NCBI GenBank assembly: GCA_024280775.1
Contig: JAJRPM010000006.1
Coordinates: 1-64,000, forward strand
Source: Candidatus Zixiibacteriota bacterium
Lineage (GTDB): Bacteria > Zixibacteria > MSB-5A5 > GN15 > JACZUZ01
Length of the DNA stretch: 64,000 nucleotides
Reading direction: 5' to 3'
This document shows, piece by piece, positions 4,463 through 36,244 of the stretch (positions are counted from its first letter, which is position 1; the number at the start of each line of letters is the position of its first letter). The translations under genes were made by a program, and so were the position numbers. The notes beneath the pieces are model-generated. The model did no database searches. It saw only the letters and a program-made list of their open reading frames with translations, and was not told where the DNA came from.

Positions 4463-4612
4463 GTCACTCTGAGCAAACTAAGTAGGTCAAGTCCCCTTTT
4501 CAGGGACTTGACAAAGTCAGGTACAGCAACAAAACATCAACCCCAAACAAACTCCAAAACGTCAAGTCCCAAGAAGGGGACTTGACCTACTGAAGTATGC
4601 TCAGCATGACAG
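4463..4612. repeat. CTGAGC-type palindromic repeat interrupted by a REPIN
   Basis: The outer arms GTCACTCTGAGC (about 4463-4474) and GCTCAGCATGAC (about 4600-4611) are inverted copies of the CTGAGC-type arms seen at 5305-5384 and around the GIY-YIG gene. The family A REPIN (4482-4590) sits between them, suggesting insertion of one repeat into another. Confidence 0.6.
4482..4590. repeat. REPIN, family A (GTAG + GTCAAGTCCC hairpins)
   Basis: Two REP hairpins in inverted orientation: 4482-4512 (GTAG, then GTCAAGTCCC / GGGACTTGAC) and 4561-4590 (the same hairpin ending in CTAC). The 48-bp spacer is A/C-rich. This is the third copy in the window of the element that flanks the RAYT gene at 26.8 kb. 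Confidence 0.9.
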
Positions 4613-25048: not shown

Positions 25049-25134
25049 GTAGTGGCGTCCCTTGGGGCGCCTTTTCCCAACTACGCGCGACAGTAATACT
25101 TGGGCCAACAAGGCGGGGCAAGCCCCGCCACTAC
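25049..25134. repeat. REPIN-like pair, family D (GTAG + TGGCG hairpins)
   Basis: GTAG-TGGCG...CGCC at 25049-25071 and the inverted GGCGGGGCAAGCCCCGCCA-CTAC at 25112-25134. The two hairpins differ in stem length, but both carry the GTAG/CTAC foot and face each other. Confidence 0.65.
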
Positions 25135-26635: not shown

Positions 26636-26656
26636 ACTCAGTTACACAAATCAACA

Positions 26657-26774
26657 GTAGGTCAAGTCCCCTTTTCAGGGACTTGACTTTTCTCTCCTTA
26701 GAGTGAGTGTATCTCGATTCCCAAATTGTTTTCTTTCCTGACATGTCAAGTCCCAAGAAGGGGACTTGACCTAC
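26657..26774. repeat. REPIN, family A, left of the RAYT gene
   Basis: REP hairpins 26657-26687 (GTAG, GTCAAGTCCC / GGGACTTGAC) and 26745-26774 (inverted, ending CTAC). This element is the mirror image of the one at 27319-27438: outer hairpins share the CTTTTCA-type loop, inner hairpins the AAGAAG/GAGAAG-type loop and an adjoining ACAT. Confidence 0.93.
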
Positions 26775-26794
26775 TTATGTGTTTCTCGAAGTTG

Positions 26795-27292
26795 TTATTC
26801 TCCGAAGTCGCCTTGGAATTTTACTCCGGCGCCCCAATCATCTGTGTAGACGCCGCTGTTCAAGTATTCTCGCGCCGATGAAAACTCATAGTCGAACGGT
26901 GAATCAGCGATACCATGCTTTACCGGATTGTAATGTATGTAGTCAAAGTGCGCGTTGAAGTCAGTCTGGTCTCGAATCACATGGTCCCAATAACGCAGTT
27001 GCCAGAATCTGCCGCCGTGATGAAAGCCTTTGACTCGCAACATATTTGTAAATGATAGCTTTAGAGACTGAATAAACTTAGGTAGCGGTGTGCCGTCCAG
27101 TTCTATCAGTAAATGAAAGTGATCCGGCAAGATCACCCATGCGTGTATCTTTGCGTTGTGTTTAGAAGATTGTCGATTCAATGCCTCAAGGAACACATCA
27201 GAATGTTGCGCCAGAAAGGGAGTTCGGCCATGAGTGACAGCAGTAATGAAAAACGTGGCGTTCTCTGTCACATATCGTCTCAGTTTCGACAT
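26795..27292 (-). CDS. REP-associated tyrosine transposase (RAYT, Y1 family)
   Basis: 165 residues, standard for RAYT/TnpA-REP. The HUH pair is in LPDHFHLLIE (about residues 55-64), and the catalytic tyrosine region shows the RAYT/IS200-type signature YIHYNPVKHGIA (about 117-128). The N-terminus ATFFITAVTHGRTPFL is also typical. These single-strand nucleases bind REP hairpins through the GTAG foot. The gene stands between two REPINs in mirror orientation that carry GTAG, so substrate and enzyme are side by side. It appears intact, without frameshifts. Confidence 0.95.
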   Translation of the reverse strand: MSKLRRYVTENATFFITAVTHGRTPFLAQHSDVFLEALNRQSSKHNAKIHAWVILPDHFHLLIELDGTPLPKFIQSLKLSFTNMLRVKGFHHGGRFWQLRYWDHVIRDQTDFNAHFDYIHYNPVKHGIADSPFDYEFSSAREYLNSGVYTDDWGAGVKFQGDFGE

Positions 27293-27318
27293 AAGGTAAT
27301 ATGGTCAAGAACACCCAA

Positions 27319-27438
27319 GTAGGTCAAGTCCCCTTCTCGGGACTTGACATGTTTGGTTATAGAACCAATTACAGATGGAGAAGATATTTCCTGTACAATA
27401 GGAAAAAGTCAAGTCCCTGAAAAGGGGACTTGACCTAC
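27319..27438. repeat. REPIN, family A, right of the RAYT gene
   Basis: REP hairpins 27319-27348 (GTAG foot) and 27408-27438 (CTAC foot). It is 120 bp, against 118 bp for the left copy. Confidence 0.93.
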
Positions 27439-27443
27439 TGGGC

Positions 27444-28217
27444 TCAAAGAGTGTCTACGCCTAGCTTGCGAAGATCGGCTCCGAGTGGGTTACTAAAAAT
27501 CTTGAGCGGGAGCTTACGTGGTGGGTTGAGTTTTAATGTGTCGCCACCTAATGCACTTATCTTCGCAAAATACGATGTGCGAGCGCTGTCCATATTGAAC
27601 CGTTTTCTTCTTGCGAAATTGATTTCGGCCATGACAACCATCCCCGACCTATACAAGCCTCGCGACGCGAAGTCCTCTCTGATAGCTTCGATCGAATCCG
27701 CCAGTCCCATGGGTACACTCTTAACCCAGAATTCGTAATCGGCCATGACGCTTGCCAGCTCTATTTCATTTTCTTGCTTGATTCTGGAATCAATGAGCGC
27801 CTGCTCCGCGTCGAACTGCCTGTCTGCAGAATACATATTCAGGAAAAAGAACAAAATGCCCACTAGCACTGGCCAAAAATACGCAAACCACCATGCTTGA
27901 TGTAGTTTGAATTCTTCGAGTTTATCACTTGCATCGATACTTATGGCAAGTCTTTCAAGCCAAGAACGTACATCCTTGAACCAAGCCTTCGAAATAATCG
28001 GATATTCGAGCTGGTCAGAATCGATAAAGTTCTCACTTCGATTCATGCACCTTTCAATATCAGTGCAAAGAGGGTCTTGTGGTCCAAAAGCATCTGACGC
28101 CAATCGGCGAGCTTTCTCCACCCATTTATTGAGAATCGATTCTCCACACGAATCTAACTCGACATCAAATTCGTGCCGTAACCTTTTGTACCTTCGCTTG
28201 GCATCAGATCGCTTCAT
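27444..28217 (-). CDS. Single-helix membrane protein of unknown function
   Basis: 257 residues. A basic, charged N-terminal region (KRRYKRLRHEFDVEL) of about 105 residues is followed by one hydrophobic helix (WWFAYFWPVLVGILFFFLN, about 109-127) and a charged C-terminal part ending in a Lys/Pro-rich segment. No signal peptide and no recognised domain. It starts 22 nt before the ETF-QO stop codon region on the same strand, but its stop falls right at the REPIN. Function unknown; a separate acquired gene is possible. Confidence 0.65.
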   Translation of the reverse strand: MKRSDAKRRYKRLRHEFDVELDSCGESILNKWVEKARRLASDAFGPQDPLCTDIERCMNRSENFIDSDQLEYPIISKAWFKDVRSWLERLAISIDASDKLEEFKLHQAWWFAYFWPVLVGILFFFLNMYSADRQFDAEQALIDSRIKQENEIELASVMADYEFWVKSVPMGLADSIEAIREDFASRGLYRSGMVVMAEINFARRKRFNMDSARTSYFAKISALGGDTLKLNPPRKLPLKIFSNPLGADLRKLGVDTL

Positions 28218-36213: not shown

Positions 36214-36244
36214 GTCAAGTCCCTAAAAAGGGGACTTGACCTAC
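36214..36244. repeat. Solo REP, family A
   Basis: GTCAAGTCCC, loop, GGGACTTGAC, then CTAC: one half of the REPIN that flanks the RAYT gene, 25 bp from the family B REPIN. Confidence 0.88.

Follow-up and report, generated by a model that had tools for sequence, protein, structure and literature searches.

A RAYT gene between mirrored REPINs in a Zixibacteria genome, and near-identical REP-bounded units in its relatives

RAYTs (TnpAREP) are regarded as domesticated transposases, which are present in single copy, are not mobile themselves and act on REPs in trans. Nunvar et al. described them as always located between two inverted REPs and did not see mobility of the IS type (PMC2817692). Bertels and Rainey found them to be single copy and apparently incapable of self-mobilisation (PMC3116915), and REPtrons, composed of a RAYT and its REPs, are reported not to transpose as a unit (PMC3116915, PMC6006769, PMC2817692). 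REPs are usually present in more than 100 copies per genome and their nearness to RAYTs has been seen earlier in other bacteria (PMC2817692), while REPs without a close RAYT are also a known pattern (PMC3686654). No report of a RAYT in Zixibacteria was found in the open-access literature.

The DNA analysed here, referred to as the window, is the stretch of 64,000 nucleotides of Candidatus Zixiibacteriota bacterium (GCA_024280775.1, contig JAJRPM010000006.1, positions 1-64,000 of the forward strand) corresponding to contig C9 (66 kb, 2% of the genome) of a 3.17-Mb assembly with the genome label G000. It carries, between convergent genes, a RAYT gene flanked on each side by one REPIN, and we consider with high confidence that this block is a REPtron of the known kind, here in Zixibacteria.

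The gene and its hairpins

The RAYT gene (26795-27292, minus strand) is an intact open reading frame encoding a 165 amino acid protein with the motifs DHFH, WQ and YIHYNP and the C-terminus GDFGE. LPDHFHLLIE contains the HUH pair and YIHYNPVKHG the Y motif, which together give the HUH-Y1 core with the class 2 Y---NP signature of RAYT / TnpAREP proteins. In a profile search the protein matches the NCBIfam family REP_Tyr_transpos (NF047646) with 136.1 bits at a cut-off of 80, Pfam Y1_Tnp (PF01797) matches as well, and the closest solved structure is TnpAREP of E. coli (PDB 4er8, E=5e-21). A sequence-only reading of the window had already called an intact Y1/RAYT gene from the HUH pair and the Y signature, and reading frame, motifs and NF047646 agree with it. 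In an alignment of 15 RAYTs the key residues of PDHFHLL and YIHYNPVKHG are invariant and a C-terminal GE is present in all 15; this GE is probably equivalent to the GE pair G160/E161 of E. coli TnpAREP, the pairwise alignment with 4er8 ending before it. TnpAREP subclass 2.2 (Bertels group 2) is defined by DHLH, WE, YIHYNP, a median length of 165 amino acids and a host among the Proteobacteria (PMC6006769 Table 1). The window protein shares the length and YIHYNP and differs in DHFH and WQ, and as its host belongs to the Zixibacteria the protein is called closest to subclass 2.2 and is not placed inside it.

Each REPIN is composed of one hairpin with a 7-nt loop and one with a 6-nt loop, arranged in mirror order across the gene and with GTAG at both outer feet. 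The left REPIN (y-i', 26657-26774, 118 bp, 57-nt spacer) starts with the outer REP of type y (26657-26687, plus strand), which consists of GTAG, a 10-bp stem GTCAAGTCCC and the 7-nt loop CTTTTCA, and ends with the inner REP of type i (26745-26774, minus strand), whose GTAG foot points toward the gene and which has a 10-bp stem and the 6-nt loop CTTCTT, followed by ACAT. In the right REPIN (i-y', 27319-27438, 120 bp, 59-nt spacer) the inner REP of type i (27319-27348, plus strand) again has its GTAG foot toward the gene, a 6-nt loop CTTCTC and then ACAT, and the outer REP of type y (27408-27438, minus strand) has the same sequence as the outer left one. The outer arms 26655-26691 and 27404-27440 are inverted copies identical over 37 of 37 nt (100%). 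Folded as single-stranded DNA, each of the four hairpins has a 10-bp stem with about -10 kcal/mol (z -4.4 to -5.1), equalled by 0-1 of 200 shuffles; the whole left REPIN folds into one long hairpin of -30 kcal/mol (z -7.5) and the whole right REPIN into one of -36 kcal/mol (z -9.5).

The sequence-only reading had described a REPIN of about 120 bp per side, with inverted hairpins and outer GTAG, which is confirmed at the coordinates given, and had taken the left and right REPINs to be reverse complements of each other. The latter is correct for the hairpins, for the loop order and for the ends of the spacers, which are mirrored between the two REPINs (TTTT at one end and ACAT at the other), and does not extend to the spacers themselves, for which a gapped alignment of 57 against 59 nt gives 38 identities, a marginal likeness (z 3.3). 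The mirror thus exists in the hairpins but does not extend over the full length of the REPINs.

The REP family in the genome and across the order

The stem GTCAAGTCCC occurs 16 times in the window with at most one mismatch, against 2.7 expected, and 55 times exactly in the genome, against 5 for the reversed control. The genome-wide count of the hairpin proposed by the sequence-only reading gave, with relaxed matching, 11 REPINs and 8 single REPs, for a total of about 30 REPs across nine contigs, together with a second RAYT at 44% identity. All 11 pairs are composed of two head-to-head REPs with a short spacer and are repeated as a pair. The spacer measures 57-60 nt in six REPINs, including both of the unit, and 48-49 nt with a different sequence in two. 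Within the window the same family is represented by a further REPIN of 109 bp with the other spacer family (4482-4590, plus strand) and by a single REP of y type (36214-36244, minus strand), both intergenic. The REPs flanking the gene are therefore repeated in the genome as in other REPtrons, with a copy number which is low compared to the usual figure of more than 100 and which counts against the REPtron reading.

Further repeats of the window genome were recorded. Two REPINs on C2 (G000:C2:204-324 and 697-817, L047) follow each other at a distance of about 493 bp, with spacers that are nearly identical, an apparent tandem duplication, and the REPIN at G000:C17:107512-107717 (L044) has a spacer of about 140 nt in which an inverted repeat of the CTTCGCTACGCTCAG.ATGAC type is present, suggestive of the insertion of another small element. 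A palindromic dispersed repeat of 27-29 nt (GTAGTGGCGTCCCTTGGGGCGCC type) is present at 25049-25077 of the window, and a stretch of the same type is also found at two REP-bearing intergenic sites of the sister species G001 (L108, L112). The second RAYT of the genome (G000:C5:289-759; L032, L119) is accompanied by REPs with GTCGGGAGC/GTCAGGAGC stems, whose inner feet point toward the gene as in the window unit. A second, long and bulged REP family, GTAG-GTCGGGTTCCG...GAAACCCGAC, is present in the window genome at L043:1552-1597, L047:2460-2682 and L048:6435-6561; the RAYT clade carrying GTAG-GTCGGGTTCCG long REPs was not found in this genome and was found in G001 (L117).

When the REP was defined strictly as GTAG-GTCAAGTCCC-(4-9)-GGGACTTGAC, there were 20 in the window genome, 7 in G001 and none in a further 78 genomes from the order. 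The sequence-only reading had named a REP distribution unrelated to RAYT presence as evidence against itself; the REPs are restricted to the genus, within which G001 has REPs and no RAYT closer than 45% to that of the window. Those RAYTs of G001 that have adjoining REPs have REPs of types other than those of the window unit. At one orthologous interval (C1:213 kb in the window genome, C18:19.4 kb in G001) window-type REPs are present in both species. The REP family thus most likely predates the divergence of the two, and a RAYT of window type was most likely either lost from G001 or is missing from its assembly. REPs would accordingly persist without their enzyme, which counts against the REPtron reading.

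When named genomes are considered, most of the nearest RAYTs belong to candidate division Zixibacteria, so that the earlier guess of an FCB-group host holds. Among 131 other genomes of the phylum no RAYT closer than 48% to that of the window was found. Mirrored GTAG hairpins with matching stems were detected by a strict test around 24 of 49 related RAYTs, these being the ones with full flanks and including a few from other phyla, and around 0 of 1060 shuffled flanks. RAYT and REP co-segregate over the order. On a tree of 73 RAYTs, built by a quick method and with many weak forks, the REP stem type requires 11 changes, compared with 20.3 when the labels are shuffled (none of 300 shuffles being as low), and host family requires 12 compared with 12.0, which indicates a joint inheritance of REP and RAYT that crosses host families. 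Horizontal transfer, or old paralogy with loss, may be the reason. One supported clade comprises 15 RAYTs, most of them shorter, in which the long REP type replaces the short one, and two further REP stems are patchily distributed over the order. The earlier description of the block as a complete RAYT-REPIN unit is supported by the NCBIfam match, the match to the 4er8 structure, the genome-wide REP set and the order-wide pairing.

By analogy with other RAYTs, the protein would recognise hairpins with a GTAG foot in single-stranded DNA, for which the lagging-strand template is the most likely place, and would cut and rejoin beside them. In this way REPINs, each a head-to-head pair of REPs of about 110-120 bp, would be copied or moved into further intergenic positions, those in the vicinity being somewhat preferred, and the two flanking REPINs would be its nearest cognate substrates, enzyme and sites staying linked. 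Single-strand cleavage and contact with GTAG by the window RAYT are taken over from other RAYTs, and we infer that the window RAYT is active and the maker of these REPINs. Among the genomes compared no REPIN insertion was seen to be polymorphic, which also counts against the reading.

Origin of the mirrored layout and mobility of the unit

The mirror layout had suggested to the sequence-only reading that the whole unit could have been mobilised. Mirrored GTAG hairpins belong to the original RAYT description (PMC2817692), hence the layout alone is no proof of unit movement. Moreover, the window RAYT has no second copy in its own genome (nearest 44%) and its site has no clean empty counterpart. 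In relatives, by contrast, near-identical REP-bounded units at unrelated sites do support movement of whole units.

For the window unit, the explanation to which we give close to an even chance, just short of it, is that the two REPINs came independently to lie beside an immobile RAYT, REPINs gathering near RAYTs, and that the mirror is one of few possible outcomes or is kept by a need of the RAYT for inverted REPs. Outside the unit, 3 of 14 REP loci are on the 66-kb contig C9 of the unit, where 0.29 are expected (P = 0.003), an excess that equally supports the REPtron reading. The two spacers of the unit are hardly more alike than those of other REPIN pairs, and the left spacer matches C2a and the right one C16 slightly better than they match each other (z 4.1 each). 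Against independent landing stands the recurrence of mirrored REPs with different stems around RAYTs of the order, by which the mirror order is a rule and no accident.

Alternatively the block in its entirety, both REPINs included, would be an autonomous mobile element, or would have been one until recently, its RAYT cutting at the outer feet and taking its own gene along. This refines the REPtron reading and is compatible with it, and we rate it as tentative, somewhat below even. Within the window unit, the two outer REPs show no difference over 37 nt while the spacers have drifted. The main evidence comes from G044, a single-contig genome in which two 658-bp REP-RAYT-REP units (C1:108-765 and C1:903441-904098; L084/L280/L281) differ by 2 bases. 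The homologous stretch reaches 7 nt beyond GTAG on one side and 8 nt beyond CTAC on the other. The flanks, compared over 15 kb and 8 kb, have nothing in common except separate short repeats measuring 20-61 nt. Copy 1 has a short left flank, since the contig begins 107 bp away from it, and a right flank that is long and distinct. A lone 61-nt REP copy lies about 240-300 bp from copy 2. Dispersed pairs in G052 (90% over 611 bp, the right end exactly at CTAC, the left REP shortened in one copy) and in G010 (86% over 615 bp, the left end about 30 nt beyond GTAG) are older and weaker evidence than the G044 pair. Also weaker is a 593-bp unit (92%) with unrelated flanks that G032 and G052, which belong to different genera, have in common.

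Two other candidates for moved units were discarded: the G024/G012 pair (L091/L248) has syntenic wider flanks, and G045:C91 (L158) is an exact 1664-bp tandem duplication (100%), possibly an assembly artefact. The latter duplication includes a RAYT pseudogene and ends on the right a few nt beyond a CTAC foot.

Against a mobile element speak, in addition to the single copy of the window RAYT, the single-copy and non-transposing RAYTs of the literature cited above, the fact that REP-REP recombination could produce the same borders, and the lack of clean empty sites. The interval downstream of mreB is variable, being occupied in the window (26639-27711) by the RAYT unit and in G001 (C12:154970-157343) by open reading frames of 447 and 161 amino acids, with neither a REP nor a clean empty site. 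G002 and G003 gave no continuous match across mreB and the downstream genes. Around copy 2 of G044 no clean empty site was found either, relatives being without the larger surrounding stretch. The dispersed pairs favour movement of the unit, be it by the RAYT or by REP-REP recombination, and whole-unit movement is a serious and testable possibility. The wider proposition, that Zixibacteria RAYTs with mirrored REPs still move as REP-bounded wholes within genomes and between genera, and that the window unit is such an element, is one we regard as possible, with the chances leaning moderately against it.

Two further explanations concern the nature of the hairpins and of the gene. That the hairpins are merely transcription terminators or mRNA-stabilising structures between convergent genes, the RAYT being incidental, would suit the intergenic position of the window REPs and the place of the unit between convergent genes; it was rejected as very improbable, since the conserved unpaired GTAG feet, the pairing into REPINs, the genus-limited spread and the RAYT-linked stem types require an explanation at the DNA level. 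An ordinary active IS200/IS605 insertion sequence, with which the block shares the Y1_Tnp domain, the HUH motif and terminal hairpins, can be dismissed almost entirely in view of the GTAG feet, the single copy, a score of 26 bits at a cut-off of 55 for NF033573, and a Y motif YIHYNP without Y---Q (PMC6006769 Table 1).

Comparison with described systems

The IS200/IS605 elements (IS608, ISDra2) share with the window the HUH-Y1 catalytic core and the terminal single-stranded DNA hairpins; in distinction to the window they have no dispersed GTAG-REP population, carry a Y---Q motif and transpose as whole elements. Among the closest described systems is the REPtron of E. coli K-12 (TnpAREP/RayT, 4er8; y and z2 REPs), which has in common with the window a 165 amino acid HUH-Y1 protein and GTAG REPs of two types that surround the gene as head-to-head REPINs. 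The window differs from it in the phylum, in the unbulged stem (10 bp, 6-7 nt loop) and in its genomic REP number of about 30, and identity to E. coli TnpAREP is about 33% or less, an inexact figure, the measured likeness being the E value of 5e-21. In Stenotrophomonas (Nunvar et al. 2010, PMC2817692) the gene likewise lies between inverted GTAG hairpins repeated genome-wide, with single REPs per side and 37-427 perfect REPs per genome, whereas the window has REPINs on both sides. In Pseudomonas fluorescens SBW25 (Bertels and Rainey 2011, PMC3116915) inverted REP pairs are likewise the unit of dispersal and cluster near each RAYT; the REP sequences are different and the RAYTs are single copy, whereas relatives of the window RAYT occur in dispersed near-identical units.

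The window block itself is a fresh example of an arrangement already known, and the greatest interest lies in the relatives, with whole units that look as if they had moved. Should they have done so, the Zixibacteria RAYT units would be mobile wholes, and not immobile domesticated enzymes acting solely on REPINs in trans. The REP type tracking the RAYT lineage across host families and the G044 pair together offer a place to test the loss or retention of self-mobility by RAYTs, the pair supplying two exact borders, at 7 nt and 8 nt beyond the feet, on which a study of cleavage could be based. Near-identical whole blocks at unrelated sites are contrary to the earlier papers on RAYTs.
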